Shown here: positions 1,188 to 36,007 of the stretch, piece by piece | Layout: every line of letters starts with the position of its first letter | How positions within the stretch are numbered: the first letter of the stretch is position 1 | DNA from: Strigamia acuminata | Lineage: Eukaryota > Arthropoda > Chilopoda > Geophilomorpha > Linotaeniidae | Length of the DNA: 64,000 bases | Direction of reading: 5' to 3' | Assembly: GCA_949358305.1 (NCBI GenBank) | Contig: OX442314.1 | Span: forward strand, 26,397,118 to 26,461,117 | Position numbers and translations under genes: made by a program | Notes under the pieces: model-generated | What the model was told of the DNA's origin: nothing | Seen by the model: only the letters and a program-made list of their open reading frames with translations | Databases searched by the model: none

Positions 1188-1566
1188 TTATTTTTTGAAA
1201 CAATTAATTAGATTTAAGTAAAGAACTTGGATTATTTCGGGTATTGCAAATAGAGACAACCCAAGCATCAAACCAAACCCATTTCCCACATCACAAAAAA
1301 GAGCATTAAGGCTGTACGATGAAATTTCTTCAAACTTCTCTACCATGTTATTCATTCCGGTAATACCAAGTATCTCGGTTATCCATGTTCCAGGCTCTTG
1401 AAAATAAACGTCTGTTGTGACAACGCTTTCTTTGCATGAAGGTTGGCAGTGACAGACTTCCATTTTGTTTATATTCATAGAAATGTTAATAAATGTTGCC
1501 ACAACTTGTTTAGCTTCAGAGGCTGTTTTGCATGGATTTGTGAGATTGTCATCAGTAAGAGGTACA
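1188..1566 (-). CDS. Copy A exon 11: second C-x-C-P-x-C motif and final TM
   Basis: The acceptor CTACTAG ends at 1567; the stop codon is at 1188-1190. The exon encodes about 125 residues with EVCHCQPSCKES, the conserved Cys motif of the family's ectodomain, then CDVGNGFGLMLGLSLFAIPE, a second pore/TM signature (GLS), and a short cytosolic tail. This exon is absent from copy B. Having two complete sets of signatures in one gene is the basis for the two-module call. Confidence 0.7.
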
Positions 1567-2514
1567 CTAGTAGTAAAAAAAAATCTAAAATAGACAAGTT
1601 GAAATAAAAATATAACTCTTATCATAGAATTCCAGTTTAAAAATCCACTGTTGCTTCTGTCTGCAGTCCAAAACTACAATAGTTTGCAAGTGGTTTAACG
1701 AATCTCTTCTATATAGGTGGAAAATAAATGGTCTTGTAAGTTATACCTGCATTTGATTGATTCAAGTAGTTTCTTCTTGAAACAACTGTCCTTGCATTGC
1801 TTGTGCTCCTCCATTCCAACACAAGGATTTGATTTTGTTTTCAATGATGTTTTCTGCAGTGAATTGTTTTTAAAAATACATGAAATATTAAAGTCAATCA
1901 AATGTTGTTGTAAAGCCACTGATGACACTTAATGGGCATGCAAATCTGAAAATCTTTATATTATTTTAAACTTTAGGAAACTGATCAACTAAATTGGGTC
2001 AGTGCCCAGTGTACCCATGTGACAACATGCCACTGGTTGAAATGGGCAAAAAGTAAAATTCAGGTTTATATCAAATTTTTGCATTTTGGGTATACTGTAC
2101 TTCAAAAAATGAAAATCGGAGGACTGAAACAGCAGTCTGTAGAATGTTTCGTTTACTCGTAAGAATAGAATATTTTTCAGCTCCTGGCGGACGAACGTAC
2201 AACTACAGAAAAAATGAAAATGAAATGAATTAGGATAACGATAAGACAAAGACAAAGATTTAGGCCTCAAAGTGCAAACGTGCTATAAAAAAAAACCCAT
2301 ACAAAAGATTTTTAAACACAACACATGCATGAGGAATTACAGGAAGTGAGTTACCTGAAATAATCCATCGGTGCAATTGAGGCGCACAGGTTTTTTAAGA
2401 ATAAGGAAAAATGTTGATGTAGTTCCGGCATATTTCATTCGTTCTGTAATCAAAGCATTCGTAACTTCAAACTGGTTGATTGCTAGCATAACTATTATTC
2501 TGATTGGGTATACT

Positions 2515-2674
2515 AGGTGCATTCAAAAAGTCTAAAACGTATGCAAAACGCGTTTTGTGTTTATACGTGACGTCATTCCCATTGAAATGTTATTCAATGT
2601 TATTCAATGAGAATGACATCACGTATAAACACGAAACGCGTTTTGCATACGTTTTAGACTTTTTGAATGCACCT
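2515..2674. mobile_element. Hairpin MITE at the exon 7 donor of copy A
   Basis: This near-perfect palindrome has arms of about 70 bases around a short centre and ends with AGGTGCATTCAAAAAGTC as inverted repeat. It is flanked by ACT (2512-2514 and 2675-2677), and copy B (about 40688) lacks it, so it is an insertion. It lies immediately inside the intron after exon 7, and its own end now supplies the bases after the GT donor. No coding capacity; non-autonomous DNA element. Confidence 0.8.
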
Positions 2675-3002
2675 ACTGATTTCAATTTCCAAACATGTTC
2701 CTGAGTGCATGTAAATATCTCTATCCACGAAGGTTGATTCATTTTTCAGGAAACCCGATCCCTACGATCGAAAAAGCAAACAATAACAATTATTCTTCCG
2801 GTATTTAAAACTGGTAAATGTTAAATTTGAAATTGCTTGTGCATGACAAGATAACAAAACAGTTAAACTGAAAATAAATTTAGCTATATATGGCACTGGA
2901 TACCCACTCTATACTAATATTACATGAAAATCAAAACTATCCAGAAAGTTGCAGTAAAAGTAAGAAATTTCGTTGCATTTTTCTGGCAAAAATTCTGAAA
3001 GT

Positions 3003-4183
3003 TGTTGCGATCTCAAATGTTCGCTTCATTTGTGGTGAAATTGTTCTGCCACGTTGCTAAGATATTATTTATATTTTAACCATAATTATTAGAATTGTGT
3101 TTTTTGCCGTGCACCTGTTGCGCTTTTGGGCAATTGGCCCAGAAGCTGTAACGGCTGCCCTGGTATTTTGAGCCCTGGATTGGGGCGTTGCTAAGTCAAT
3201 CCCCAAATTTTGCACCGTTGCTAGGGCTGAAGCGTGCCTTGGCACACGCCACGCCTGCGCACTGGCCGTTTTCCGGCCATATTCCGAGCAATAATTCGAA
3301 TTATTACTCACTCTTTGCATCACACTCATACTGTTCACACCGACACAGCTTTGTTCACTAACCAAAAACACTGTTTTGTCCGTGATCCGTGAGTCTTGCC
3401 AAGTTTCACCTCGATTTGTTTGAACCAACGTTCAAACGAATCACTTTCCGAGCCGCGAAGACGACGCACGACGGCCCAAACCACCGTCGTTCCCGCCGCC
3501 GCCCGAAGACCAACGCGCCCACGCCGTTGAAGATCGACGCCAGCCAGCCGCCGAGGATTGCAGAGCCACCGTCGCCGCTCCTCGACCTGTTGACGACGAT
3601 TCCGATTCAGATTGTAGCGGATCTCCAGTCAGGTTTTAACGATCGGCGGTACCCGCCGTTTGACTACTTGTCTTCAACGGAAATCTCCCGTTGCAATCTA
3701 GGGTTTAACCTAAGATTTCCCGTATTGTCAGGCTTAACAGCCGGACCACTTTGTGAAGTCTTTCGGCTTCACGCTTCCTTTCCCACTTCGCAGAGTTTGC
3801 GCGGCGTCGAGTCGCCATTTCTGCATTGCTTTTTCCCGCCCGAAGGAGACCCGCGCTGTTTCGAGCACGTCGCCTTCTACGCCGACGATATTATCCTCAT
3901 AGAACCCATCTTATTAACCATTTCATCAATCGAATCTGTAATTAACGCACAATAAATTGATTAACTGTTTGATTTAAAATAACTAAACTAGCCTTTATTC
4001 AAGATCAAATCCCTAGACACCGAGTTAACGGCTAACCCACCCGATAGAAGACCTATAAACGGCATTCAACTGCTTTCCACAGGTGAACGCCGGGATCTCT
4101 TGCAAATTAGAAAATCCCATAGTGACTAAATATAAATTTAGTGTTGTTGTAAAAATTCAATTGGAACCGTCAGGAACGCGACA
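3003..4183 (+). repeat. 5' LTR of element 1
   Basis: 1,181 bp, starting TGTTGCGATC and ending AACGCGACA. It contains an AATAAA at 3951-3956 and a GC-rich middle that is open for 188 codons on the plus strand (3389-3955). It differs from the 3' LTR at about four positions (for example Arg versus Trp in that frame). Confidence 0.92.
3389..3955 (+). other. Open frame of 188 codons inside the LTR, status unknown
   Basis: A frame beginning at a non-ATG codon (TTG; the annotated first residue is assumed) runs through the GC-rich part of the LTR and is Arg/Pro-rich at first. The 3' LTR has the same frame at 13908-14474 with one visible residue change. I recognise no domain. GC-rich sequence can stay open by chance, and a young element would keep both copies alike regardless, so coding is uncertain. 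Confidence 0.25.
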
Positions 4184-4185
4184 CT

Positions 4186-4203
4186 TGGGGGCCCGTCCGG
4201 GAT
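4186..4203 (+). promoter_or_regulatory. Primer binding site, tRNA-Pro-like
   Basis: TGGGGGCCCGTCCGGGAT begins two bases after the LTR. It matches the complement of the tRNA-Pro 3' end, as remembered from retroviral PBS types, with one mismatch. It primes minus-strand DNA synthesis. Confidence 0.8.
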
Positions 4204-4274
4204 TTTCAATTGTTTAAAGTTAGAACTTATTCCTACTTTCCTATCATCTTTCTCTTTTATCTGTCTAATTCAAC

Positions 4275-6878
4275 ATGTCTAACTGCGAAGGAGAAATTCC
4301 CATTGACGATGAAGGAGTTCAGACTCGCACGAAAACGAGCGCGAAGCGCCGTAGATCGGGTCGTCCTCGAACGGCACGTAATAGTCTAACGGCTCAACAT
4401 TTAGCCGAAACTATTGACGCGGTTGCCGCCGAGGGTGCCACGACTAAGGAAGTTGGGACAGGCAGTGAAGAACGCGAAGAAGCGATTTCCGCTGGACCAA
4501 CAAACTGGGGTGATTCTTCCATGGATTTGGACACCATCGAGATTCCTGATACGCAACCGGTGGGTTACAAGGAACTTCTGGATCGAGCAATTCTCCAGGG
4601 GGCACAAGTGACCGATCAAATGACGATTATGGAGATTTATGAAGCAATGTCTAATCATGAAAGAAAACGCCTAGTCGATCACATGAATGAGCAAATGGCC
4701 GCTGTTACTCGAAAAATGAATGTAGAGTCGCAGGCCAAGGAAGCTGCTGAAAAGTCGAATCAAGCTCTGCGAGAGATAAACGCTCAATACCGTCACAGTG
4801 AAGAAAAGCTGAAAAAACAATCGGATGAGCTGGAGCGCCAGCGCAGGGAATTCGATGCTCGAAAGAAACATTTGTCCAAAAAAGAGACTGAAGTCTTTAA
4901 TAGGGAGCAGAAGATTGCCTGGGATTCCATAAAACGACAGGAATCATCTAATGAAGAACTTCGTAGACAAATGGCAGCCGCCGACAAGAAAGCTCAAGAA
5001 ACTGAAGATGAGCTACGGCGAGCCAACTTGCTGAAAGAACAGGAGGAATTTGAGGAGGAACAAGAACGAATACGTGTTGTTGAATTCGCCTCACAACAGA
5101 AAGGTCCTGCCGCAAAAGTGAAAAAGAAAGTCGTGCGGCTAGGAGACTCTGCAAGTGACGAATCATCTCAATCATCAAGTGAAGATGAGCGACAGTTGCG
5201 CAAAAGAAAATGTTCCAATGCTGAGGGGCCTATATCAAAAAAGAACGGCGCTTCAGATGCCGAGATTTTCACAAATAGCGACAAACTCATGACAATGATG
5301 GATGAGAGAAATCGTATGAAAATACAGAATGATTCACATCGGTCCAACGATAATTATGACCGAAATAAAAGTCGAAATACGTCTCCAGATCCCGAAGATA
5401 ATAATCAGGGGGATGATAGTCAGAACCATGACTACGTGCCTCCGCCAGGGGGATCGAAGGACGAATCCCTTTCGGAAGGCGAAAAATCTACTCGATCTGA
5501 GACGCGGAAAGAGCGAAAGAGTCGTTCAAGGACGAAATCGAGAAGATCTCAGTCAAGCGACGAACGTTATTACACCGCTGAACAGATTGACGCAATGTTT
5601 CAAAAGCAAGCGCAGTCAGCAAGTCGAACCACACGGCTAGCAGAGTTGCGTAAATTCGACTTGAAGCGCAAAATTGCAAAATACACCACTGATAAGTGGC
5701 GGCATAAAATTGCCGATGTGAAAACAATCCGATGGGATCGATTAGTCCCTGATCGTTTCAATGGAGAATTCCAAATGGGGTCAACATTTTTGGAAGAAAT
5801 TACCAGGATGGCTCGACTAAATGGTATAACACCTCAAGATACTCTGGAAAAGTTAGTCCCAAAATCATTGGTGGCACGCGCCGAAAATTGGTTCGTCGAA
5901 CGTGAATTCGTGCACTGGAATCAATTCGTACAAGCATTCATGCGAGAGTACGCGGAACCTACTGAAGATATTTATCAGTTATGGGACAATTTAGCTCAAT
6001 CAGCGGGAGAAGACATTCGTTCTTATCTGCGCCGAACTGAAGATTTGTTGTCGTCATTACCGACTCCGTCTACTGACCATGATGTGGACCGAAAATTTCG
6101 GAAAGCTATGACACCATATTCCCGAAGTATTCTGCAAAACGTGGATGCGCCACCAGTTGGATCATTCAAGGAACTCTCACAATTTTTAAGGGATAATGAC
6201 CTAAGGATTGAAGAAAAATATAATGAATATCTGACTCCGGAGGAGACTGCGGCGATTAAGAAGCGGCAGTTACGCATTAAAGAATATGTGAAAGAAGCTA
6301 GGCTTGGACAAGCTCCTTTAATGCAACCCCGAGATCGAGGGGATTACTTTGCAGAGAAGACGGATAAAAGTTTAAATACGGGACCTCCAAATCCCCACAA
6401 ATTACCCAAAAACTCTCGAGCTTACGCGAATCTTGCCGTGTCGGGAGACAACGCTGATACGGTGGAAGGAGACAGTGCAGGGCTGGATCCTTTATTTGAG
6501 AATGCTATTGTGTTACTCGCGAAGCATGTCACTGAGAATAAATTCAGACCAAAAATGGTTGGAAAAAACGTTACTTTTAATACAGCAAACCTTAATACAG
6601 ATGCTCGATCAAAATCACCTTTGCCGCTGCCCGTCAAGCCCGAAGCGATTCCGGATACTGACAAGGAATCGGCTACAGATAAAAAGGCCGTAGAACCTCG
6701 TTCAAAGTCGCCCACTTCAGGAGACAGTCCTAGGCGCAAGTCGCCGGAAACCGATCCGTGCCATAGATGTGGAAAGTTGGGGCATTGGTCGAATCAGTGT
6801 CCTGATAGAAGTCCAGCAGCTGCCGAGATAGAAAGTCTTGTCAGCAAGTTGGGAGAAATGATTCGAAAAAACTTGTGA
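4275..6878 (+). CDS. gag: Gag polyprotein of element 1
   Basis: The 867-residue structural protein starts at the first ATG after the leader (AACATGTCT). The N-terminal third is Arg/Thr-rich, then about residues 130-270 form a heptad-rich, highly charged probable coiled coil. A Ser/Arg/Asp-rich linker follows, then a capsid-like helical region near 480-660 (including WDRLVPDRFNGEFQMG). One CCHC zinc knuckle, CHRCGKLGHWSNQCP, lies near 829-843 and binds RNA. The stop at 6876-6878 lies just after a slippery heptamer, so pol is probably made by -1 frameshifting. The coiled coil is longer than in most Gypsy Gags I know. Confidence 0.85.
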   Translation: MSNCEGEIPIDDEGVQTRTKTSAKRRRSGRPRTARNSLTAQHLAETIDAVAAEGATTKEVGTGSEEREEAISAGPTNWGDSSMDLDTIEIPDTQPVGYKELLDRAILQGAQVTDQMTIMEIYEAMSNHERKRLVDHMNEQMAAVTRKMNVESQAKEAAEKSNQALREINAQYRHSEEKLKKQSDELERQRREFDARKKHLSKKETEVFNREQKIAWDSIKRQESSNEELRRQMAAADKKAQETEDELRRANLLKEQEEFEEEQERIRVVEFASQQKGPAAKVKKKVVRLGDSASDESSQSSSEDERQLRKRKCSNAEGPISKKNGASDAEIFTNSDKLMTMMDERNRMKIQNDSHRSNDNYDRNKSRNTSPDPEDNNQGDDSQNHDYVPPPGGSKDESLSEGEKSTRSETRKERKSRSRTKSRRSQSSDERYYTAEQIDAMFQKQAQSASRTTRLAELRKFDLKRKIAKYTTDKWRHKIADVKTIRWDRLVPDRFNGEFQMGSTFLEEITRMARLNGITPQDTLEKLVPKSLVARAENWFVEREFVHWNQFVQAFMREYAEPTEDIYQLWDNLAQSAGEDIRSYLRRTEDLLSSLPTPSTDHDVDRKFRKAMTPYSRSILQNVDAPPVGSFKELSQFLRDNDLRIEEKYNEYLTPEETAAIKKRQLRIKEYVKEARLGQAPLMQPRDRGDYFAEKTDKSLNTGPPNPHKLPKNSRAYANLAVSGDNADTVEGDSAGLDPLFENAIVLLAKHVTENKFRPKMVGKNVTFNTANLNTDARSKSPLPLPVKPEAIPDTDKESATDKKAVEPRSKSPTSGDSPRRKSPETDPCHRCGKLGHWSNQCPDRSPAAAEIESLVSKLGEMIRKNL

Positions 6879-6914
6879 GCGCGGGTTTGGCAGCGAACAC
6901 GCTGAAACTCGCGC
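6866..6914 (+). promoter_or_regulatory. -1 ribosomal frameshift signal, gag/pol of element 1
   Basis: The slippery heptamer A AAA AAC (6866-6872) is in the correct phase of the gag frame. After six bases a hairpin begins: an outer 10-bp stem 6879-6888 with 6905-6914 (one G-U pair), a two-base bulge GG, and an inner 5-bp stem 6891-6895 with 6900-6904 around an AACA loop. Pol lies in the -1 frame. All parts of a classical signal are present; activity is inferred. Confidence 0.85.
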
Positions 6915-9136
6915 CAGTTGCCTCGGAAACAATTAAGGAAGTTGGAATTGAAGTTTGTCCTAAAATTGAAGTAACCCAGGATTATCGAGAATCATTAGAT
7001 AAAAATTATGTAGACTACTGGGATATAGTAGATAAAAAACATTTGTTAGTAGCTCAGTTTAAACCATGTGACCTGAGATTTCCTAAAGTGGATATTACAA
7101 AACTTAACGAAGTTTTGGCCGAAAAAACGGCCGACAAGCGATACTTCCAATATCACGTTAGAAAAGCACTACAGTGCTATCCCAAACCAAGTAAAAATTG
7201 GATGGATAAACTTTGGGAAAAATTCCGTCCCAGGTCAAAAGAAGTCGATGAAATTGAAGAGATGACCAGAGCTATGGAAGAGGTCGTCCTATCATATAAC
7301 GATGAAATGCACGAACTACCGATTGATTACCCTGCATTAGAGCATCGGATACGTAGAGTCACCTGTAATTTGAATATGGAGGATTTTACGGGAATTCCAA
7401 AGATACAACTACAAACCATGAAAGGACCAATTACTGGGCTGTTAGATTCCGGAGCTAATCGTAGCTTTATGGCAGCATCAGTAATGGAGAATTTGAAGCT
7501 GGAAAAAGAGCTTAAGTACATATCACCAGGTCTTTGTATAGGGACAGCTGGTAAAGACATTCGACCAGTTGGTACCCTGTTACTGTCGTTTCGATGGACA
7601 CATGGCGTACTGGTACACCCTTTCATAGTTATTGAACACCGCTTCCCGATGATATTGTTAGGGAATGATTTTATGAAACGGCTAAGCATACAGCCGAATC
7701 CAAAGACAATGTCTTGGAATTTTATTACTCCGATAACTGAAACTTTGCCATATATACCACAGTCTGTCTTGGATAGATACAAGACAAAAATCGAGGAATT
7801 ACCACTTGACAATGCTAGTTTTATATGTCATGATGAGATTCTAGCTGGAGCCGCTACTCTAAAAATAGGAGACGACATTACGAAGATGGTAAACGATGCT
7901 AATTTGACTTTAGAGCAAGGACTCTCACTAGCTGAAGTATTGCAGCGACGACAAAGAATTCTATCGAGAGTTCCAGGACGTACCCACATTGTGCAGCATG
8001 ATATCAAGCTGACAACTGATAAACCGATAAGGGTACCATTTAAAAGTTATAACCCACAAAAAAGGGAAATAATTAGGCAAATCTGCCAAGACATGGTCGA
8101 CAAGGGGATTGCCGTGCCTGCGACTGGAGATTATGCCATGCGAATTGTTTTAGTGGTCAAACCAGGGGCCGAACCACGTCTCTGTGTAGATTACCGGCCA
8201 TTAAACGAACATACAGAATATGATCCTCCTCAGATGCCGACGATCGAGGAAATTTTGAGAGAAATTGGTTCATTTGAGTGGGTCACCACAATCGACTTGA
8301 CGAAAGGCTACTGGCAGATAGGCTTAACCCCATCTGCACAGCCGAAAACGGCTTTTTGGAGCCCTATAGGTCGCTTAATGTTTTTAGTTATGGCATTTGG
8401 ACTAAAAAATGCGCCAACCAGCTTCCAGCGTTTAATCGAGAAGGTCCTCGACGAAATGTATAGGAGACAGGCATGGGCATACCTGGACGATATCATAACC
8501 GTCTCAAAAACATATGAAGAACACTTGATCAATGTCGACAAAATTCTAGAAAAATTAGAGCAAGCTAATTTATGTGTCAACCCCGGCAAATCAAAATTCT
8601 GTCGTAAGGAATTGATTTTCCTTGGGTATAAATTAGGAACCGGCGGACTCGCCGTTGATCCAAAAAAGATGGATGCAATCACGAAATTTCCAGCCCCAAC
8701 TAATTTAAAAGAACTTCAACGCTTTCTGGGAATGGTTAACTTTTTTCATCGATTACTAAAAAATTTGTCTGTCATCGCGGAACCACTGAGACCATTGCTG
8801 AAGAAAGATGCAGATTTTAATTGGCAACCCATTCATCAAGAGGCCTTCGAGCAGATCAAAAAGGCTCTCACCGATTCAGGAACAATGGCCATGCCAGATC
8901 TGTATCAACCGTTTATAATTCACACGGACACCAGTCGACAAGGATTGGGTGCCGCGTTAATGCAAATCCAACCTGAGAAAGGTGGACAAGAAGAATTACC
9001 TTGTGTTTATTCGAGCCGTAGCTTGCAGCCGGCTGAAGTAAACTACACGGCCACTGAACTAGAATGTTTGGCCGTTGTTTGGGCATTGCGTAAATATCGA
9101 CCTTATATTGAATTTACCAAGTTCACCAAGCCTTAA
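6875..9136 (+). CDS. pol: Pol of element 1, part 1: protease, reverse transcriptase, RNase H (truncated)
   Basis: This frame lies in -1 relative to gag. The annotated start (GTG) is only the first open position; translation probably enters by frameshift. Protease active site LLDSGANRSF near residue 190; RT with the YLDD catalytic motif near 535 and FGLKNAPTSFQ before it; RNase H starts at HTDTSRQGLGAAL. The frame ends at a TAA (9134-9136) inside RNase H, where a few expected residues are missing and the frame changes. RNase H continues in another frame from about 9140. This copy therefore cannot make a complete Pol. Confidence 0.88.
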   Translation: MSAGLAANTLKLAPVASETIKEVGIEVCPKIEVTQDYRESLDKNYVDYWDIVDKKHLLVAQFKPCDLRFPKVDITKLNEVLAEKTADKRYFQYHVRKALQCYPKPSKNWMDKLWEKFRPRSKEVDEIEEMTRAMEEVVLSYNDEMHELPIDYPALEHRIRRVTCNLNMEDFTGIPKIQLQTMKGPITGLLDSGANRSFMAASVMENLKLEKELKYISPGLCIGTAGKDIRPVGTLLLSFRWTHGVLVHPFIVIEHRFPMILLGNDFMKRLSIQPNPKTMSWNFITPITETLPYIPQSVLDRYKTKIEELPLDNASFICHDEILAGAATLKIGDDITKMVNDANLTLEQGLSLAEVLQRRQRILSRVPGRTHIVQHDIKLTTDKPIRVPFKSYNPQKREIIRQICQDMVDKGIAVPATGDYAMRIVLVVKPGAEPRLCVDYRPLNEHTEYDPPQMPTIEEILREIGSFEWVTTIDLTKGYWQIGLTPSAQPKTAFWSPIGRLMFLVMAFGLKNAPTSFQRLIEKVLDEMYRRQAWAYLDDIITVSKTYEEHLINVDKILEKLEQANLCVNPGKSKFCRKELIFLGYKLGTGGLAVDPKKMDAITKFPAPTNLKELQRFLGMVNFFHRLLKNLSVIAEPLRPLLKKDADFNWQPIHQEAFEQIKKALTDSGTMAMPDLYQPFIIHTDTSRQGLGAALMQIQPEKGGQEELPCVYSSRSLQPAEVNYTATELECLAVVWALRKYRPYIEFTKFTKP

Positions 9137-9144
9137 GGTGGCTG

Positions 9145-12100
9145 ATGTCTCTAGAAGAGCCTGCAGGACGTTTGGCACGGTGGCAGCTCGAATTGATGGC
9201 TTATACGTTTGAAATCCAATATATTAAAGGACCATTGAATGTGTTGGCTGACGCGTTGTCCCGAGCTCCTGTCTGTACGCCCGAAGAGGACAACACTGAG
9301 GGTGAAGATGACGACTTGTTAGCGTACTGTCCTTCGCCTTATCGACATTGGAGGCTGGGGAGACCTAATCAGCTTCCCACGTCTGAGATCGTCGAAAACG
9401 AAAGAATAATTAATTTCTGGTCGCATGCTTACGATCCTCCGGAAACCGAATCTAAGGAGAAAATACATCTCATGATGACTCAAGAATTCGGATTTCCATC
9501 ATCAAACGTCCTGGTGCATGCTTTTGCAGCTAATGTAGTGAAGAAATTAGAATGCGAGCCGCCTACAAGAGAAGAAATTATTGTTGGGCAAAAACAAGAT
9601 AAAGAATGCCAAAAAATCCGAAATTTCCTGTTCAATGGCTGTTACCCTCCTGAACTTAAACACGCAATGAGTAAGAGACGTTTTAAACGAAAAGCGTCTG
9701 CTTATCTAATTGAAGAGGATTTACTTCTAAAATTCCACCCAACATTGACGGATGAGCTAGGAGAGAACGGAAGAGCGTTGAAAGTGGTTGTACCAGAAAA
9801 TTTGGTTTATCGAGTCATCTGGACAGCTCATGGACACCCGTTGTCTGGGCATAGCGGCATTACTAGAACGGTGTATCGAGCTAGAAGAATCTACGCATGG
9901 CCGACGATGAAACGAGATATCACTCGCTTTATCAAACATTGTCAACGCTGCCAAGCTTGCAAGCCAAGGCAAAAATTAGAAATTGAAGCAGCTCAAATGG
10001 GTCCTTATGCTCCCTTTGACTGTTTAAGTGCTGATCTCATGGGCCCAAAACCTAAAACTCCAAGGAGTAACACTCACATACTCGTAATAATCGATGTGGC
10101 TACCAAATGGCCGGAGATGCGGCCAATGTCGAAACCAACTTCAGCTAAAATAGCTGATTGTATTTATAATTTATCACTGCAATTTGGCTTTCCACGCAAA
10201 ATACTGTCTGATAATGGCTCACAATTTAGGTCACAAGTATATCAGAAGTTTTGCGAGAAATTTAAAATGTTGCCGGCCTATACATCGCCATATCATCCAC
10301 AAGCTAATCCAGTGGAAAGAACCAACAGAGATATTAAATATTTAATTGCTTTATACACGGATGTTCACACCCGTTGGGATGAATATTTACGAGAATTTGC
10401 CGTTAGTCTGCAAACTACAGTCGCAGCCGGAAGAGAATTCTCACCGGCTTATCTAAATTTCGGCAGAGAACTTAGAGTGCCGTGGGATCCGCGCTTGCCA
10501 GATGAAGTCCTTGTGGTGGATCCGAAAAACCCTCATTTACATTCATCAACTAGAAAAAGTGCTAGCAAGCACATATCAACATATGATGTCACATGTATTC
10601 GACCTACAAAAACGAGTACAAGAGCACCAATTAGAAAAGAAGTAACCGGGATTTTTAGAGGAGAATTATCTGCCGAAGTACGACGTTTGCGGCAACCTGG
10701 CCAGACTTGGGAGGATGTAAGACAAGAATTCTCCGATGCCATTGCCGCTCACTGGGGCTGTAGATGTAGAATCTGCGCACGGCTAACAATAGCCGACCCC
10801 GTTTCATGGAACTTGAGATTGGACCCGCCATCACCATTGAGATCCAGAATGCTTTTTTCCTGGCTCTTTCCCACGGAGGAGGAAGACATTGACTTTCATG
10901 GCTTTTTCCGAATCCCACATTCTGAGCGTAACGCTTATTTAGACGCCATCTGGGAGAAATTAAAAGCCCGGAAAGAGGAAACCATGCGGAAGCTACAAGA
11001 GGAACAAGCGTGGTGGGCTGACCGTCGTAAGCACTACGACTTATCCGAACTTGCCGACTCACAATACGAAATGCACATTTTGGGATTGGCCGGACACTTC
11101 GGCCACGCTCGTGCCCGATTCCGTGACTGGGAACGCCAAAAGGACGCATATCACAACCAAGAGCGCACAGACAAGCGTGAACGGTCAAGTTCAATGGCGT
11201 CAAACGAACCACGTGCCAAGATGACCCGTGGTAATCACCACAATACGGCTTCAAGAGCCGTTGATAATGTTTTGGAAGCCAGAGTTTCAAGATGGGACAC
11301 GGCTTGTCGATTTCCTGGAGGAGTGGATCCATACGCCGCTCGCCCGGGAACAAGACCAGATTTGCTTCGTGCCAACGGCCGTCTTAAGCATCGAGCGGGC
11401 CGACAAAACCGTGAAAAGTTAGAGCGCGAACGCCTGGCCCTGATTCCACCACCGCCCAAGAAAGATGAACTGCCTGGTCGATGGGATCGCGAAGTGGAAG
11501 AGCATTCCATGCAAGTCACCCTTCGCAAGAAAGCAGCGTTAGATCAACAGCAAGCTGAATGGGACGCCTGTTTCCAATCGCCCACTGCAGAAGAACCAAC
11601 GATAGGATCCAATGAGACTTTGATGCTAAATACACCAACATCGGTGTCCGCTTTAGAGGAAGGAAGTTCTGCGGAAGTCCGTGTCGTTGACAGAAGCTAC
11701 CGAATTTCACCTCCGTCCACGGCCGACAACACGGCCTGCGAATGGAAGAGTCTTCCAATTGTGCAAAACTTGACCGCAAAGCCTAGTCACCGGCCAATCG
11801 AAGGGCCGATCCCCGTTGAGTGTAGAGAATTTACGGATTCGATCAACCCGGACCCAAGCCTTCCAGAACCACGACTTCCAACGAGAAAGTTCGGGATGGT
11901 GTCTCAGGTCCCGAAGAAGGGATTTGATCAAAACTACGAAGCCATGTGGCAAGGATGTTGTGAAGCACCGCTCGAAACTCAGGAGATTGAGTTGTCTGAC
12001 ATGGATTTGTACCAGATTGCCCAGGTTTCTGAGGGACTGAAAGGTTGTCGTCACGTCGCCGGCTTACTGAATCGAATGGAGCCGACGGGACCCGACGACC

Positions 12101-12495: not shown

Positions 12496-12540
12496 GCTAC
12501 TGCCCAAACCACGACTGACCAGTCCAATGGTCATGTCGCC

Positions 12541-13510: not shown

Positions 13511-13521
13511 TTGGGGGGAAG
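13511..13521 (+). promoter_or_regulatory. Polypurine tract of element 1
   Basis: TTGGGGGGAAG lies directly before the 3' LTR; it is the expected primer site for plus-strand DNA synthesis. Confidence 0.75.
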
Positions 13522-16715: not shown

Positions 16716-16717
16716 CG

Positions 16718-23919: not shown

Positions 23920-25226
23920 GACACAATATATTGAAAATATTTTATTTTAAATAAATATTTCCAATCATATTCACGAAGAATTGTTAAATTTTATTAATTA
24001 AAAACATTTTTTTTTGATGTGGATAAAATTTAACAAATGTTTGAGTTATTTTTTACACAAGCTGATTGTATTCAAATTAATCTACGTGTAAACATTTACT
24101 TGAAACTGTGTTTCCCCCTTTGGGTTAATAGAAACTTCGAGATGAGTAATTACAAACCAATCAAATTACTCCTCGAAACTCCCCTTAACCCCTGGTTTGA
24201 GATTATCACTCACTTGTTCGCCAAGTTTTGTACTGGACTGAAATCAAGGATTATTCTCGACCCTTCGACGCTTTAACGGATTTTCGCTGAAATTTAGTGA
24301 GTTAAAATCTAGATGATTTTGAACACTTATCGTTTATTTTACTGATTTTTTCATTTGACAAATATCAGTTCAAATTCAGAAATTATCGACACGACGCTGA
24401 TTATCGAAACCATCTCGTGGACAAAATCGCGAGTAAGCCTTTCACGAACTCACTAAGTGAATTCCCGGTAAATATTTAAGCAATATTTTGTCAAAATTTA
24501 TAATATTTTGACATTAATTGACAACATTTATTTTGGTTAAGCGTTCATTACGGCGGACTTAGAATTCGCACGCGCCGCACAACGTTTTTATCGGCCAACA
24601 TCGCCGGAACCGAGCAGCCCTCGCAAATACGTGAAGCTAGACATTAAACTAGCCAAGTATACCCTTCTAGGACTACACCTAGTTAGTAAGTGTTTATTTT
24701 TTGAAAGATAAAATATCTCTTAAGTTCCTTGGAAATTGGTGAGCAGACATGGGTTAACAAGTCACGTGTATGATAGGGGCAAACGCCACCAGATGTCGGT
24801 AGTAAATTATTTACTCGGACGAATTGTGGAATTATTCGTACAATTAAAACCATGTAAAATGACTATTGTCGGATGCTAAAAAACACTTACAAAAATATTT
24901 TTTTTTTAATATTTTTATATGTTTTTTAGTTATTATGTCGTGTAGATACAAAAATTAGGTTTATTTCATTAAATAAACACTAATTTGAATATTTTATCAG
25001 CGATATTGTGTTAAACGATAAAATGAAATTATATGCCAAGTCGAGAATAATTATTAATCTTAATAATTATTCGACAAATGGAGGAAACACGCTAACAAGG
25101 GAACTTAAGAATTAATTATGAAATTAATCCAGTTGTTGGTCGACAATTAATTTAATTTGAAATTAAATTAATTTCCGACGGTTGATTCATGTTCTCAAAT
25201 AAAATTTATATTTTCTTGAAGATGCA
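23920..25226 (+). other. Noncoding gap between pol and ORF3 of element 2
   Basis: 1.3 kb of AT-rich sequence with stops in all frames apart from a weak 79-codon stretch at 24037-24276. GTAAGT-like sequence (about 24687) and a pyrimidine-rich tract before ORF3 (TTTTCTTGAAG at about 25211-25221) suggest that ORF3 may be expressed from a spliced RNA, as envelope genes are; this is inference. Confidence 0.4.
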
Positions 25227-26870
25227 ATGAGTCGCCGAGGTCGTGCTAGCAAGCGACAGTACGTGCATTGGGATCCAGAAGAATCGGAAGAGACGGATTA
25301 TCGCTTTGTTAATCCCTCCTCTGACCCCGAGCTCGTCGCCAACTGGGCCCGTGATAACCCGGATCTCGTACCGCCACGAATTAGGACCGCCATGGGTGTT
25401 AGCCCGACCGACTCGCGTCCTTCCAGAGGCCGTCAAGCTAGTCAGCGTGTTGTAACCTATGATGCGCCGAATTGGGATTTTTCTGACGACTCGTCACAAT
25501 ACTCCCGTTCTGCCTCGAGGAGACGGCGCCAAGATGACTTCTCACAAGAAGAAGAATCGGTTGAAGAAGCTCCGCCTCCAGCTACCAGCAGGCAGTTTGC
25601 CCGACCACGAAATCCGCGTGATACCGCTAGTCGAGGCAAGACTGGCAAATCCAAAGGACCCACCAAGTCCACGTTGGCATCTTCATCCGAAGCGCTGACC
25701 CGCCCAACATCGCAAGCTCGTTCGATATCGGAGCTAAATTTGCCAAGTTACCGGAAGCAGCGAAGAGAACACGTATTTCGAGATATGGAAGCTGCCGCCT
25801 TGGGGACTAACATCATGCCAAAGTCGAAGCTGATGTTCTGCCCATTGTGCGCAGGATGCGGATGGTTGTCGTCCTTGTTATCCGGCATTCACGCCGTAGT
25901 CTGCGTGAACTGTCACGGTGGTAAGCGCGTTGCCATATCCAGCATGTGGAATGAAGAAATTCTTCCATTTATCGTCAAGGGGCTAAGTACGCCGACAGCA
26001 CGCAATTGGGCGATGTGTCGCGAATGTGGCCTCATCCACCAGGGCCCGGAGCAGGCTATTTATGTAGACCCGGCACAAATGTCCAGCACCTCGACTCCAC
26101 GAGGAGGATTTACGGAGCCACAACGCGAGCCGGAAACTCCCACCCCTGCGATTGATGGAACTCCAGTTGCCTCGGCAGAAAACCTTCCAACGTCAGTTAT
26201 TGCGTCTGATTCTCCGCCGGTTGCATCCGATTCTGGTCCACAAGCCGCCGCTTCTCCAGAGGGAACGTCGACTAACAACATGATTGTAGCGACTATCCCG
26301 CTCCCAGAAGCAAGCCACGCTGCTGAAACGGTTATTTTACTGGTCCACCCATATATGCCGAGACCAGACATGTCGCTCACGGAGCAAACTAAGGCGGAAG
26401 TGGAACATTATTTCCCAATTTTATTGGAAGCAGCTAAGCGTATTAGTGTGTCGATTTCAAACGACCGAATTCCAGATTTGAGCGTGCCACTGGCCGTGAT
26501 CCAATGGATTTTCCATCCATCCCGGCCGGAATCTTTTCAAACTCGCTCTTTTATTTGGTGTAAGATTTTGCAACAGGTCTCAGCAGCAGCACACCCGTTG
26601 ATTCGTGAGGGATGGCACTCCGGCTTACCCGACCATCACTTGGTTTTCTCCGAGCCAACCAGCGCTAACACCATTCCGTTAGGAGGGCCTGATCCCCTGG
26701 AAGTATTCACCGAGGAACAACACAGAATGCTCCTGAATCCCCTGGCCCATGACGTTGAGACAGATGTAGTACCGGAATTGGTAGCTATTCAACTTAATTC
26801 TCCACCCGCAGCCGTCTCGGAAGTTGTTACATCCATGGAAGGATTTATTGAGGATGAAGAGTTGGACTAG
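25227..26870 (+). CDS. ORF3 of element 2: unrecognised 547-residue protein with a Cys/His cluster
   Basis: Starts at ATG 25227 (an ATG five bases earlier gives only a two-codon frame). Residues 1-190 are polar and disordered, rich in Arg, Ser, Asp and Glu. Residues 203-271 hold a cluster that looks metal-binding: C205, C208, C211, H222, C226, C229, H230, C264, C267 and H271. Then come a Thr/Pro/Ala-rich linker (about 280-370), a likely folded hydrophobic C-terminal part (about 375-500) and an acidic end. There is no signal peptide or TM, so it is not an obvious envelope protein. I do not recognise the family. It is an intact frame in a young element, so probably functional. Confidence 0.75.
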   Translation: MSRRGRASKRQYVHWDPEESEETDYRFVNPSSDPELVANWARDNPDLVPPRIRTAMGVSPTDSRPSRGRQASQRVVTYDAPNWDFSDDSSQYSRSASRRRRQDDFSQEEESVEEAPPPATSRQFARPRNPRDTASRGKTGKSKGPTKSTLASSSEALTRPTSQARSISELNLPSYRKQRREHVFRDMEAAALGTNIMPKSKLMFCPLCAGCGWLSSLLSGIHAVVCVNCHGGKRVAISSMWNEEILPFIVKGLSTPTARNWAMCRECGLIHQGPEQAIYVDPAQMSSTSTPRGGFTEPQREPETPTPAIDGTPVASAENLPTSVIASDSPPVASDSGPQAAASPEGTSTNNMIVATIPLPEASHAAETVILLVHPYMPRPDMSLTEQTKAEVEHYFPILLEAAKRISVSISNDRIPDLSVPLAVIQWIFHPSRPESFQTRSFIWCKILQQVSAAAHPLIREGWHSGLPDHHLVFSEPTSANTIPLGGPDPLEVFTEEQHRMLLNPLAHDVETDVVPELVAIQLNSPPAAVSEVVTSMEGFIEDEELD

Positions 26871-27516
26871 AAAGCGTCAACGATGTCGGGATCCGTTACT
26901 TTCCCGATATCTTCCCTTTTAAGGCAAGACCAGAAGTAACGAGTCCATTTTCTCCATCTCCATTTCTTGACCCGAGTTGAAACAAAGATTTAGTCAGGTT
27001 CAGGTGTATTTTATGCCGTTTTTGTGAATAATTCAAAGATCTTTAATATTTAAATTAACAATTTTGTTAAAATTTGATTACGAGTCAATGTGAGTTTGTT
27101 TAAATGAATACTAATTTTAATACTTGAATTTTAACGTGTAAAGTGTTATTTTGCAAATCATTATATTTCCAGTGAGAAGTTAAGTTTTGTGAAAATAATT
27201 GTTAAATTTTATTAATCATTTGTTTGGTACAAGAGTTTGATGTTAGTTTAAGTTATCGCCTTTTCTTGATGCAGTTGTAAGTCCACCTGTAAAGAGAGAT
27301 GGAAGCTATTATTGATAATTGAAAGTTTTATAACCTTAATAAATATTTTTTGAAGCATTTGATTAAGAAATACTCTTTATTTATACTATTAAGATATAAA
27401 ATAAAGGTTTTTGCTTACCAAGGATTACAGCTCGAGTCCCCTAGATGACAGTGTGGTCTTGATCCTCAAGATATTCGGAATAAATAGTATGTTAATACAG
27501 GTATTAACATATATTT

Positions 27517-27524
27517 AAGGGGGA
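27517..27524 (+). promoter_or_regulatory. Polypurine tract of element 2
   Basis: AAGGGGGA lies just before the 3' LTR; plus-strand primer site. Confidence 0.7.
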
Positions 27525-27526
27525 CT

Positions 27527-29116
27527 TGTGACGGTTACACTGTCATGCACTTTGTTAGTATAGGACGATTACTTCACCAATAGATGGCGCTGATGCGTTT
27601 TAGCGGTAAATTCAAATTTCGACAATTTTTGAGTGAATAAAATATAAATTACTATTTATATTTTATTCCACTGCAACTTTAGACACTTTTAAATACTTTT
27701 GGATGTTCAAATGCTAGTTGATTTATTTGTCACATAATTCTATTGAATTATGTGCAAACTCTACACCTGGTGAAGTCACCCCCCATCACCCACTGTGAGT
27801 TGGACTCCTTTTGGATTATAGTCAAAGGGACTTAATCCAAAATGTGTCCTGCGTATCCAGTTCCTGTTTTGGACCTAGTAGAAGACTATGTCCTGAGTAT
27901 CCACTTCCTATGACCTAGGATTGGATGGATTTGACTGCCCAGTGATCCCATTGGATCACTGAACAGCTATTCTCCTCACCGAGTATATATCCCCCTGCAA
28001 AACGGATATAGCTCGCTCTTGTTCTGTTTTTGTTTGATACTGATATTACTTGAGCACATATTATACTTCTCTGCGTTCCGACAATCCGTTGTAGAAATAC
28101 TTTGTATTTAGTGTAAGTATCTAGAGTGGGTAGAAGACTCACAGACACACTGCCCGCCTCTTCATGCCAACATTCCGTTGTAGAAATGTTGTAACTAGAG
28201 TGAGTAATTCACAGACACATTTAAGTGTAGTATCTAGAGTGGGGTACAACCCACAGACGCACTCCCTCCAGCTTCATGCCAACATTCCGTTGTAGAGTGC
28301 AGAATCTAGAGTGGAGTAAAATTCACAGACGCATTGGTAATGTAGAATCTAGAGTGGAGTATTTATATTTCACAGACGCATTATCAGAGTAATCGACGCG
28401 GAGTAATTTCCCGGTTACTCTCCCGCCAGCCAGGACCGAGTGGAGTAATTTCCCGGCGATGGATAACCTTTCCTGCGAGATATTTCGATTCAATTCGTTA
28501 TTGGTTTGACGGAACATTTAAGTCTAACTTAGATGTTGATTGCACTCGGGGCAAAAAATAGCTCGGCGCTATTTTAATATATTTTACTTATTTTCATAGT
28601 TTTAGTTAAGTTTGTGACTCTAAAATATCATGATTAATTCCATAGAATTAATATGAATATTTATTCTCACATTGTTACATCTCGCGGTAATTATTGATTA
28701 CAACAATTATCTGCGATGCGATGTGTGTGACGATACAGAAAAGTCAACCGCACCTCTCGGATATAACCCACCCAGCCTAACCATTTACACGCCTTTTAGA
28801 ACCAAACCCCGGACCATTTAGAAGCCAAAGCCATTCATAGATGACATCTTTTACGTCACAGCAATAAGACCGTTACAAATTCTTATTGCATGACTGAAGC
28901 CTTCAAATGATATTATTTCAGGGCTTTTGCCAAACAACTGTATAGTTTAACTTCTCGTCATTTTAGCCACTTGTAGGCATAGTATTTATATAAGGTTCAA
29001 ACCGGAATAAATGTTATATGTTTTGAGAAAACATCAGGTTTGCATATTTTACATTTTCACACAGATAGTTCACACTTTAGTTTAGCAATTGCTATCTCCA
29101 GAAGGTAATCGTCACA
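27527..29116 (+). repeat. 3' LTR of element 2
   Basis: 1,590 bp; same length and ends as the 5' LTR, and identical in every stretch compared, including the TATA box and the repeated CTAGAGTGG units. Followed by the AACT duplication at 29117-29120. Confidence 0.93.
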
Positions 29117-29657
29117 AACTAACAGAATCAAGTGGACAAAACGTTCAATGGTTAATTCGTTGCTTCCAGTAGTTTTGGTGGTTTCGATTAATATTTTTTC
29201 ATATACTTTCAGTATTCTAGTTGTAATTTTTTTGTTCGATTGATAAGCACGACGAGAAATTGCTGGTCCGATCGCTGCCCAAACCCGACGAGTTAAAGTT
29301 TGTCCTATTGCCATTAAGGATAACAAAGATAGTCCCAATGAGAATCCCAGATTTCCTCCGAAATCTATTAACAATGCAATTGTGTCGTAAGTATATTCTT
29401 CAGTCAGAAGCAGATATGTTTCTTCGGATTGAAGCGCATATAATACGATTTTATTTTTGTCTTTTTTTGGTAATCTCTCTACAGCGACTCTTGTCATGTA
29501 CATGTGCTTCGTGCAAGGTCTTAGGCACCCACAATCTAACGTTGCTACGGTTGTTAATTCAAGTTGGTAGGCATTCTTATGAATTTCAAAAACTTTGCTT
29601 TTGTTTATAAAATCACTGCAATCTGGAATGCTGCTATTAAATGCCATGTAGGGTAAC
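29117..29657 (-). CDS. Copy A exon 6, 5' part: Cys motif, TM2 and selectivity filter
   Basis: The acceptor TTTTAG lies just before 29657. The exon carries the family C-x-C-x(3)-C motif (LDCGCLRPCTKHMY), then IDFGGNLGFSLGLSLLS, whose GLS matches the G/S-x-S filter that precedes TM2 in this family. A basic linker (SRRAYQSNKKITTR) follows, then the first half of the third TM (HLILLV). The exon is cut here by the Gypsy element; the AACT target duplication occupies 29117-29120. Confidence 0.75.
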
Positions 29658-30340: not shown

Positions 30341-31088
30341 ACAATTGGATGTTAGTATTAGAAACGGGTCTGATAATTCACGTAGTATGAAACCTTGTTA
30401 GGTTTTTTCTACAGTGGGTCTGGCCCACAGAGGATCCTCATTTCGGAGAAATCAGTTTTTAACAGTTTGTTTGGACAAAGACTGGTGATTAGGTTTGGGT
30501 CCCAAAGCAGCAGTCCAAACTTTGCACTTATTCTGACGACAGAGCCGTGTAACGATATCTAGCTAATTTTATTGTAAATAAACGATAACTGACCGACATT
30601 CACTCTGTTCCAATCTTGCTAAACATTCTTGGTAACACTTAATCTGAGCTTCTTTGTCCGATTCACAATTAGGTTTGTTTAACGGTAAAAAATTATACTA
30701 GAAATTAAAAAAAAAAATTACGGTAAAAACTAAATTTTTTTTTATAAAAAATATAAATTACTTGTCGCAGAAAGAAGTAAAGTGAGGCCTTATTGCCTAC
30801 TGACACTGGTAATGCATATTGAAATGGCATTATAGGGTTGTCAGGTGCTATCTACAAGTATAAGAAAATAAAGAAATAAACTCCAAACCTATTAGACAGC
30901 TAAAGAGTTTGGGAAATATTACTTTTGTTAAGGCGAAAATAAGACCATTTTAATAGGTATTAATGACATTTTCACTCAGACGTTTAGATTTAAAAATTTT
31001 AAAAAGAAAGTGTAAATTTGTACAAGCTTAGTACAATGATTCGTTTGCATGTGGGATAATGAGATGATACAGTAACAAAAACGGCCAC

Positions 31089-31510: not shown

Positions 31511-32164
31511 GCCCTCCTCCCCGGGCTAGGTCAATTACCCACATAGGGGTTGACCTTTGGGGCCGCAGGCGGTGTGTGGCAGTGACGCAGGTCACCAGGG
31601 TGGCCTAGCGGTCACAGTTTAAACAGCATTGTTAAACGGTTATATCTTAAAATTTAGCGGCTGATTTAGATTGATTTGAGTGGCAGTGGGCATGGCCACA
31701 CAGCATTTAAACATCAAACCATGTTGAACTGCAATTGTAAACTGACTTTCGAATGTAGCTAGCGAATTGTACTTCTAGCATTGTAGTGACTACACTTTCA
31801 CGGTCATCATGGTGCGATTTCCCCACCCAATCACAAGCTTTTGATTAAGAGAGCACTTCATTATGAAATAACGGTATTTTTAACACATTACTACCGTAGG
31901 AATGTGAGCAAAACATAGATTTATTAGGTAGTGTACCAACCAGTATGGCAGTTTCATCGCAGTATCCATCTGTATGGACACCGAAATTCAATTCACTTCC
32001 TTGATCAAGAAAATATCCTAAAAAATGAAATATTTCTGTATGAGAATTTTAGAGATCCAGAAACCACTTCTCATTTTGCAGTTGCTTCTCATTCTAATTT
32101 GGCTAGATTTTTCCATTGAGGAATTGTATGAATAATTTAAATAACATGACCTTACGTTAAAGGC

Positions 32165-32477: not shown

Positions 32478-32870
32478 TCGTACATGAAAACATGAAGCGA
32501 GCAAGTTACTGCAGAAGATCAGAAGCAGGAACTAGTCACCGCATCAGCCTTTCGGTTGTCAAATATTACCTCCATTGACGATTAATGCAGTTCCCGTTAC
32601 AGTTTTCTTTTCATAAATGTCAATCATTGATGGGTCTGTGAAGTATGTAAGATTGCCTTCATTTGCAGTCATATTAACGATGAGACGTTTGTACTATAAA
32701 TACACAACAGAAGTTTTCTTTTAAAACAGTTAAGGAAAATAATTTTTATTTAACAAAACACTGCTGTATTCAGGATTATTAATACCGTAGAAATTCGGTT
32801 CTAAGATGCACCCCCAACTTTTACACATGGTATTTTGGAGAGAAAAAAATTAGCAGTCGATTGTAAGACG

Positions 32871-34516: not shown

Positions 34517-34680
34517 TACTGCCTCATTTAAACGCCCGGGTTCATTCAGATGCCGGGCCCGAATAAACGCCGGGGGTTCAGCAGCGTTTATTGCACCGCG
34601 CGCCGCCCCGAACCGACTTTACCGGGAGGGGGGGGTCGACAAAAAAAAATTTAACGCCCGGGCATTTAAATGAGGCAGTA
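34517..34680. mobile_element. GC-rich MITE (CCCGGG core)
   Basis: Inverted ends TACTGCCTCATTTAAACG and its near reverse complement enclose GC-rich sequence with CCCGGG repeats. The ends resemble those of the larger element at 43033-43882 (TACTGCCTTGAATAAACG), so they may belong to one family. Confidence 0.65.
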
Positions 34681-34859
34681 AGGTAGTTTGTATAGTCTAA
34701 AGTCTAAAATTAAACTCGAATTGTACATCTTCTCAAGTTGAGAAGTTCCTATTTATTCTATATTCCATCTTTGTAAATTGTTTCAAGACGAAACAATCCG
34801 GTTCATATTGTGTTAAATAAATTAAGTAAGATTGCTTTGAGAATCCAAGAGATTTCATT

Positions 34860-35297
34860 AAGGGGTTTCATTAAGTGGGCTATTATTGTGATTAGTTGAT
34901 TATTGCAATAATCATAATCATTCAATTATTAATACGTTACAATTGTTTAAAAAAAGTTCCTACAAATAATAATTGCAACTACCTAACTCGTTTCATGTGT
35001 TCAGTTTAACATAAACTGAGCAGACTTTGTTATATTATGACCTTGTGTAGTTCAAGCGGGTCTGGCGCCGCCATGTTAGTTTCAGTCGAGAGAGCCCAAG
35101 CAAGGACGACTACTAGTAGTCGTCCTTGGCCCAAGTCAGCAGAAAATCATGGTTTGGGGTGATTACTTGATTAGTTGCTTATTAGATTAAATGATTATTC
35201 TGGGGACTGGTTGAATCCAGTCACATGAAACATCAAGTAATCGACTAATCAAAGTAATCAAAGTAATCAACTAATCGCTCATTTAATGGAACCCCTT
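34860..35297. mobile_element. MITE with AAGGGG ends and a central palindrome
   Basis: The ends AAGGGGTTTCATTAAG and CTTT/CCATT counterparts are inverted repeats running on into repeated GATTAGTTGATTA motifs. TTA/TAA at the borders suggests a PIF/Harbinger-like target. A perfect 28-nt palindrome lies at 35101-35128. Confidence 0.62.
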
Positions 35298-35539
35298 ATT
35301 GTATAACCATAAGACTTAGAAATAAGCAACCATGCGATATTTGTCTTTTATTAAGTAGTAAAAGTGAGATCACGACAGCCTTTGTGTTTGCACTGCTGTT
35401 GTGTTAAAGTCACTTATTATATTTCTTAGTTTTCTCAATAGAGCATCCAGAAACTCTATATTCATGTTCACAGAAAAAAAATAATTCATGACTTTAAAAT
35501 GGCTAAAATTTAATTAAATTTGATACTTGCCCGATTCAC

Positions 35540-36007
35540 ATTCATATAGTCCCAATTTTTAATAATACTGGAATCTGACCACAGCTGTGTGTAGTTTGAA
35601 ACAGACACTTTCAACTCGAAAATTCCTTTCAGTGCCAATGCACAAGCTTGAAATTTATTTATGAAGTAACCGTAACCGTGAATATTGTCTTTTGCTTGTT
35701 TCCAATAAGTAGTCAAAGCCTTATTATCCATTCCAGACATCATAAGCCGGGAAGAATTTAGTCCAGACGTCTGTCTAAATTCAATGTTGACTTTGTATGG
35801 GCCAGATAAGTAATATTGTATTCTTTCAAATGTTTGATAGCAGCAGATGGCAAAGCAAATTGGAACAACAACCAACCACAGTACACGAACTGAAAGAGAC
35901 TTCTGTTTGACTAATATCTTATCCAATATTGGTAAAGATCTATTCTCAGTTGACGTTGCAATTTCTGCTTTGCACAAACGCCTGATGCGAGATTCAGGAA
36001 TTCTCAT
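35540..36007 (-). CDS. Copy A exon 1: cytosolic N-terminus, TM1, start of ectodomain
   Basis: The start ATG at 36005-36007 is chosen because copy B aligns from the same methionine (MRIPESRIRRLC against MKISKLRVRRLC). About 40 cytosolic residues precede TM1 (VLWLVVVPICFAICCY), then YYLSGPYKVNIEF, which resembles the Y-rich post-TM1 stretch of DEG/ENaC proteins. The donor GTGAAT at 35534-35539 gives 156 codons in phase 0, matching the phase of exon 2. An alternative donor, GTATCA, 13 bases further on would break the phase. Confidence 0.7.

Follow-up and report, generated by a model that had tools for sequence, protein, structure and literature searches.

How can a channel of threes be built from twos? 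The question is raised by a locus of the centipede Strigamia acuminata, in a stretch of 64,000 nucleotides (contig OX442314.1 of assembly GCA_949358305.1, positions 26,397,118 to 26,461,117, hereafter the window, numbered from its first base) that holds two copies, A and B, of a gene in which two modules of the DEG/ENaC cation channel family share one reading frame. An ordinary DEG/ENaC chain has one module with two transmembrane helices (TMs), whereas two modules per chain were found in copy A, in the paralogues g1 and g2 from elsewhere in the genome and in T1ITL7, a protein of Strigamia maritima. We consider it highly probable that these genes form a family in which each chain comprises two complete DEG/ENaC subunits, which arose once and then expanded, and whose chains would work as covalent dimers in a trimeric cation channel.

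A preliminary description of the window, made from its letters, had proposed for copy A a phase-consistent model of 11 exons and 823 residues with two sets of DEG/ENaC landmarks. The model holds, with GT-AG borders throughout and a single terminal stop, and all of the quoted motifs were located on the minus strand:

36007-1188, minus: copy A gene, 11 GT-AG exons, 823 codons, single terminal stop
35540..36007, minus: exon 1, ATG at 36007, N-terminus and TM1 of module 1
32570..32693, minus: exon 2, module 1 ectodomain, GT-AG, phase 0 in, 1 out
31941..32017, minus: exon 3, GT-AG, phase 1 in, 0 out
30762..30851, minus: exon 4, GT-AG, phase 0 in, 0 out
30594..30697, minus: exon 5, GT-AG, phase 0 in, 2 out
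29117..29657, minus: exon 6, first part, with CGCLRPC, module 1 TM2 and GLSLLS, the linker and the first part of module 2 TM1
29513-29533, minus: CGCLRPC, exon 6, module 1
29318-29335, minus: GLSLLS, exon 6, TM2 of module 1
about 29144-29314, minus: linker, 57 residues, basic
14816..15121, minus: exon 6, second part, remainder of module 2 TM1 and YMPDVIACGD
14990-15019, minus: YMPDVIACGD, exon 6, second part, module 2
2677..2761, minus: exon 7, module 2 ectodomain, phase 0 in, 1 out
2355..2443, minus: exon 8, acceptor GATTACAG, same place in copy B, phase 1 in, 0 out
2101..2202, minus: exon 9, phase 0 in, 0 out
1747..1853, minus: exon 10, phase 0 in, 2 out
1188..1566, minus: exon 11, CHCQPSC, module 2 TM2 with GLSLFAIPE, stop
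1434-1454, minus: CHCQPSC, exon 11, module 2
1236-1262, minus: GLSLFAIPE, exon 11, TM2 of module 2

Module 1 ends, the linker follows and module 2 begins within a single frame of exon 6, which bears out the earlier claim that the second module begins in the exon that ends the first; its two parts are separated by a retrotransposon (see below). Intron phases run 0,1,0,0,2 across module 1 and are repeated as 0,1,0,0,2 across module 2. The boundaries between exons 7 and 8 and between exons 9 and 10 were picked among candidates by frame, copy B has matching sites at both, and the acceptor of exon 8 was changed after this comparison. The model has three versions: a provisional one of 834 aa, which was the query for the protein, structure and whole-module profile searches, one of 830 codons in which exon 8 has an earlier boundary, on which hydropathy was calculated, and the final one of 823.

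Domain and membrane features of the fused chain

The family profile PF00858 (ASC, curated cut-off 23.6 bits) matched the frames of copy A exon 1 (profile positions 15-59, 26.1 bits), exon 6 (331-450, 37.8 bits) and exon 11 (334-454, 24.3 bits); the piece at the start of module 2 alone (14717-15133) gave no match. As whole modules, each scored above the cut-off, as the preliminary description had foreseen: 67.3 bits for module 1 (E = 1.7e-18) and 45.3 bits for module 2 (E = 8.6e-12, profile 21-454 of 455), with 64.8 and 56.1 bits for modules 1 and 2 of g2. The four membrane segments that had been proposed are present in the hydropathy profile at residues 38-56, 381-399, 461-479 and 795-825, the first of which, TM1 of module 1, lies at about 35840-35896 with a hydropathy of 2.41, and in each module two helices stand around a large cysteine-containing ectodomain (CGCLRPC, CHCQPSC).

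A G-x-S selectivity stretch in TM2 is a feature of the DEG/ENaC family. It reads GLS in both modules of copy A and of g2, and GFS and GVS in T1ITL7, the exceptions being module 1 of copy B, where it is deleted, and two fused loci (L012 and L013) that read LDLS. A His-Gly dipeptide before TM1 is a further, not universal, feature of the family, none was seen in the N-termini and linkers of copy A and g2, which were read by eye without a reference alignment. Judged by their sequence, the fused chains are a variant built of DEG/ENaC modules and not ordinary members of the family.

Fused genes across the Strigamia acuminata genome

Intact relatives, which the preliminary description had supposed to exist elsewhere in the genome, were found on contig C6, in an array of five head-to-tail genes in 40 kb, each with a start, a fused and an end exon; four of the fused exons are open and one contains a TGA. 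Two of these genes, g1 and g2, are intact over 798 codons, in 11 GT-AG exons of identical lengths and with the intron phases of copy A (0,1,0,0,2,0,1,0,0,2). The closest paralogue of the window copies lies at C1:1398334-1413373 and is open from exon 2 to exon 11.

The fused exon was searched for in all 237,517,015 bases (157 contigs) of the genome; these searches score the best candidates only, and their match counts are lower bounds. With exon 6 of copy B as the query, 136 of 143 matches spanned TM2, linker and TM1 without a stop, with exon 6 of g2 131 of 143 did so, the remaining 7 and 12 matches, respectively, being partial or stop-bearing. In the union of both queries, copy B counted, at least 212 loci hold the fused exon as one open frame, and together with the intact full-length genes they dispose of one refuting outcome named in the preliminary description, the absence of any other locus with the fusion in frame. 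Some of the loci may be recent or haplotypic duplicates, namely those of equal score (C4:3.01-3.05 Mb; C6:2.86/2.94 Mb and C3:11.01 Mb) and those on small contigs.

The order of exons around the fusion was tested with the start- and end-exon queries of g2 at the 73 high-scoring, stop-free loci of the g2 exon 6 search (58 further stop-free rows, nearly all weaker, were not counted). At 70 of the 73, the fused exon is immediately preceded by a start exon and immediately followed by an end exon, both in its own orientation and within 20 kb, and at the three exceptions one neighbour is absent or more distant. A second fused exon followed directly within 20 kb at 0 of 73 loci, and three-module genes were rejected for the clade tested. 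In another observation, the open frame around the fused exon begins later than elsewhere in one clade of fused genes (L017-L030), which suggests an extra intron upstream of the module 1 TM2.

For the linker, 35 loci were extracted and aligned, of which 30 were kept and 5, partial or broken, were left out. Its length is 49-59 residues in all 30, with 6-18 lysines and arginines (K+R) vs. 1-5 acidic residues. Methionine is absent from the linker in seven of them, copy B included, and present in the other 23; the linker of copy A has none after its first residue. Single-module genes at C4:7356001-7366000 served as a control, in these all three TM2 exons run into a stop about 20-30 residues past the helix, and the TM1 exons form frames of their own, unfused. 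As a side observation, this is a compact head-to-tail array of DEG/ENaC genes with a spacing of about 2-4 kb, whose TM2 has G-F-C in place of the G-x-S of the fused modules.

These data bear on whether two subunits might be made separately from the fused genes, by transcription through both modules with splicing or polyadenylation at alternative sites in the linker or close to it, or by cleavage of the protein. Tandem single-module genes in the same genome (the C4 array) speak for such a process, as does selection on the linker that is indistinguishable from neutral in close pairs. It is nevertheless very improbable in our estimate, as the linker is free of stops and keeps its length and charge in 30 of 30 loci, the order of start, fused and end exon is kept in 70 of 73, and the gene model from S. 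maritima is also a single chain of 805 aa; moreover, at the seven loci with no methionine in the linker, module 2 could not start alone unless another exon provided for it. By the same two features, no stop between the modules and no linker methionine in 7 of 30 loci, two separate genes, which the preliminary description had named as an outcome that would overturn it, also appear unlikely.

A homologue in Strigamia maritima and the origin of the fused exon

A first protein search, with the full-length copy A model as the query, gave no relatives at E <= 0.001. A search with g2, seeded with words from the fused region, returned one protein, T1ITL7 of S. maritima (38% over 93% of the region), which is 805 aa in length, forms one chain in its gene model and is listed as uncharacterized in UniProt. 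The protein can be aligned with g2 over its whole length, with identity at 290 of 775 residues, and shares 180 of 762 residues with copy A; its score against PF00858 is 111.1 bits as a whole, in three stretches. In comparisons between genes, like modules scored 242-729 and unlike modules 128-169, a pattern which fits one fusion before the genes of copy A, g2 and T1ITL7 separated, and the two modules within one gene scored 94 in copy A and 141 in T1ITL7.

We propose that the ancestor would have been a tandem pair of single-module genes that shared a set of five introns (phases 0,1,0,0,2), and that the stop codon and the spacer separating the final exon of the upstream gene from the opening exon of the downstream one would have been lost, giving rise to the fused exon 6. 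Such a fusion most likely occurred once and was then followed by duplication to about 200 S. acuminata loci.

Selection on modules and linker

Between g1 and g2 the ratio of non-synonymous to synonymous substitution (dN/dS) is 0.39 overall (0.26-0.58) and 0.27 (0.14-0.49) in module 2, at a short-intron divergence of 0.056 vs. a dS of 0.085. Copy A and the C1:1.40 Mb copy gave 0.43 (0.32-0.57) overall, 0.45 (0.29-0.77) in module 1 and 0.37 (0.25-0.56) in module 2, whilst exons 2-10 of copies A and B gave 0.52 (0.39-0.73). For 13 close pairs of fused exons taken together, the ratio was 0.52 in the end of module 1, 0.79 in the linker and 0.64 in the start of module 2. These ratios show purifying selection on the modules; any constraint on the linker would be visible only in that it stays open, basic and similar in length.

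State of the two window copies

Both copies in the window carry damage, and in copy A two retrotransposons with long terminal repeats (LTRs) are inserted. The elements and the exons of copy B are:

15126..29116, plus: LTR retrotransposon inside copy A exon 6, with LTRs, 4-bp target duplication AACT and pol domains
3003..14702, plus: second LTR retrotransposon, intron 6 of copy A, target duplication AAGT
52991..53447, minus: copy B exon 1, frameshifted
45366-45240, 45012-44936, 44612-44523, 44464-44361, minus: copy B exons 2-5, open
42693-41865, minus: copy B exon 6, uninterrupted fused exon, 276 open codons
40780-40690, 40630-40542, 40265-40164, 38369-38263, minus: copy B exons 7-10, open

The exon 6 element sits within the third membrane helix and encodes reverse transcriptase, RNase H and integrase in frame at 19612-23916. 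In a self-comparison of the window its LTRs (15123-16715 and 27524-29116) are identical at 1593 of 1593 positions, and the frame of copy A rejoins without a base change across AACT. The identical LTRs, the AACT duplication and the clean join of the frame together indicate a recent insertion into a copy A that had been open up to then; in its present state in the assembly, the gene would yield only module 1 with the linker and a short tail. The intron 6 element has a zinc knuckle, reverse transcriptase, RNase H and integrase, and its LTRs (2999-4183 and 13519-14702) are 99.6% identical in the same self-comparison. In the exon 6 element, the gag- and pol-like frames are followed downstream by an open frame of 555 aa (25203-26870, plus) without a Pfam match. 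In copy A a long inverted repeat (2490-2665) lies in intron 7, which in copy B has just 59 bases; the repeat looks like a short hairpin element inserted in copy A.

Copy B had been described as showing the same uninterrupted linkage. This is true of its exon 6, which is open over 276 codons, but not of the gene as a whole, since exon 1 is frameshifted, an in-frame loss of 24 nt in exon 6 takes out GLSLLS, and no exon 11 was recognisable by alignment in the window. Within intron 1 of copy B, a direct repeat of 329 bp, 100% identical, stands at 46863-52813 around an open frame of 1590 aa (47187-51959, minus); this is probably another young LTR element.

Elsewhere in the window, an AT-rich tandem array of about 38 copies of a 30-bp unit lies at 56336-57747, and tandem repeats of 30 and 60 bp lie at 63386-63901, where one unit can be translated into a Ser-, Pro- and Arg-rich repeat of ten residues and may be coding. 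In the mitochondrial contig (C157, 15,068 bases), cox1, cox2 and cox3 are adjacent on one strand with atp6 elsewhere, the gene order is rearranged (genes named by eye from translations). The COX1 of this contig is closest, at 84%, to that of Mecistocephalus marmoratus, a geophilomorph centipede; a chaetognath source, which the gene order had brought into consideration, was rejected because this match and the 15-kb size of the contig speak against it.

Several observations weigh against a functional family of single origin. Neither window copy is intact, copy A being cut by the LTR element and copy B having the frameshift, the loss of GLSLLS and no exon 11 found, and their closest paralogue at C1:1398334-1413373 is without the 5' half of exon 1. 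The two modules of g2 score 228 against each other, near the scores of like modules between copy A and g2 (248 and 273), and in a tree of end-exon sequences the split of module 2 has a support of only 0.82. For module 1, g1 and g2 give a dN/dS of 0.56, the interval of which extends to 1.04 (0.30-1.04), and the linker ratios cannot be told from neutral, at 0.42 (0.08-1.88) for g1 and g2, 1.70 (0.47-5.19) for copy A and the C1:1.40 Mb copy and 1.43 (0.47-6.20) for copies A and B; single close pairs range from 0.28 to 1.02, with some whole-exon ratios near 1 (0.83, 0.88, 0.97 and 1.02). Finally, the trimer itself is disputed for ASIC1a in the accessible part of PMC4529235, where crosslinking and concatemers are the grounds given for a tetrameric channel at the cell surface.

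The broken state of copies A and B, the truncated relative at C1:1.40 Mb, the partial or stop-bearing matches (7 and 12 of 143) and the equal-score loci that may be recent or haplotypic duplicates would all be in keeping with the fused exon being a degenerate relic, and the family a set of pseudogenes or assembly duplicates. We regard this as extremely improbable, given that g1 and g2 are intact over 798 codons at an overall dN/dS of 0.39 (0.26-0.58) and that a homologous chain of 805 aa exists in a second species. Chance juxtaposition or a pseudogene relic was rejected on the intact g1 and g2, the at least 212 open loci, the purifying selection and the exon order kept in 70 of 73 loci.

Assembly of the fused chain

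Both ends of a DEG/ENaC subunit are cytoplasmic, and for this reason a fusion of C-terminus to N-terminus leaves the topology unchanged. The proposed order of the chain is TM1, ectodomain, TM2, a cytoplasmic basic linker of about 50 residues, and again TM1, ectodomain and TM2. One chain would then fill two neighbouring positions of the trimer, and the third would be taken by a single-module DEG/ENaC subunit or by one half of a second fused chain; the single-module genes of the C4 array are possible partners. In the available portion of PMC4529235, engineered concatemers of two, three and four ASIC1a subunits gave typical currents, with some lower bands that its authors put down to cleavage or incomplete synthesis, and in that of PMC10329638 engineered trimeric concatemers of ASIC2a and ASIC3 form functional trimers. 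Since such engineered concatemers are functional, a natural tandem dimer is plausible as a working channel.

The even number of modules allows other arrangements. Three fused chains, with six modules, could form two trimers side by side, a double-barrelled pseudo-hexamer in which all modules are used and no partner is required, and the G-x-S stretch of TM2 is kept in both modules of copy A and g2, as such a complex would have it; we consider this unlikely. Two fused chains could also make one fourfold channel, as a dimer of dimers, where the division is even and the tetramer argument made for ASIC1a in PMC4529235, as far as its text was available, fits directly. As the solved relatives are described as trimers, PDPNaC1 included (PMC12714832, accessible part), we hold this to be quite improbable. 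We accordingly favour two positions of a trimer per chain, with two linked trimers as the main rival and the dimer of dimers as a lesser one.

The expansion of the family, its tandem arrays and its fast protein change suggest that the fused channels are sensory receptors, for chemicals or protons. We further put forward, tentatively and as a possibility that is on balance doubtful, that geophilomorph centipedes have a repertoire of tandem dimers each of which needs a shared single-module partner, giving a fixed 2+1 arrangement with two tuned sites per chain. A common third subunit of this kind would be akin in logic to the co-receptor that accompanies insect odorant receptors.

Relation to known channels

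The best matches among solved structures were BRTNaC1 (PDB 8ymr, 8ymw and 8ymx) and the centipede channel PDPNaC1 (PDB 9jf7), for both the window model (E = 7.5e-15) and g2 (E = 4.5e-18). According to the accessible parts of the sources, PDPNaC1 is a homotrimer of subunits with two TMs (PMC12714832) and BRTNaC1 is named as a channel in myriapods (PMC12804983). Both are single-module chains of 421-431 residues, whereas the Strigamia fused chains have two modules in about 800-820 residues. An internally duplicated channel subunit in one chain is found in K2P, two-pore and four-domain cation channels. These fusions suit fourfold or pseudo-fourfold pores, in contrast to DEG/ENaC channels, which are mostly taken as threefold and into which a dimeric chain divides unevenly. 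The engineered ASIC and ENaC concatemers are similar in that C-terminus and N-terminus are joined by a linker and the product is functional in oocytes (PMC4529235 and PMC10329638, in the portions available). They are man-made and have short artificial linkers, unlike the Strigamia chains, which are natural, with about 50 mostly basic or polar residues between diverged modules.

Expanded ENaC families are found in arthropods such as spider mites, and the fused family resembles these in its lineage-specific expansion. In insects and mites the family has been suggested to include chemoreceptors (PMC7738191), and two-module chains are not mentioned in the part of that paper available. The S. maritima genome paper (PMC4244043), in its accessible text, reports expanded families of gustatory and ionotropic receptors, the fused family not being among them, and, in the phylome section, lists sodium transport among the expanded functions; a term search of the available main text found no "pickpocket", "sodium channel", "amiloride" or "degenerin". 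Likewise, a term search of the available text of a broad DEG/ENaC phylogeny (PMC9822975) found no "fused", "fusion", "myriapod" or "two domains". Literature searches on fused, tandem and centipede DEG/ENaC channels gave no description of such chains among the top matches listed, subscription papers being mostly outside their coverage. The sequence of T1ITL7 is already deposited, as an uncharacterized protein.

Physiologists build DEG/ENaC concatemers artificially to fix stoichiometry, and natural covalent dimers would be ready-made tools for this. If the proposed family is real, it would show how a chain with an even number of modules can evolve within a threefold channel, or else speak for another number of subunits, and in centipedes it may represent a large, uncharted family of sensory receptors.

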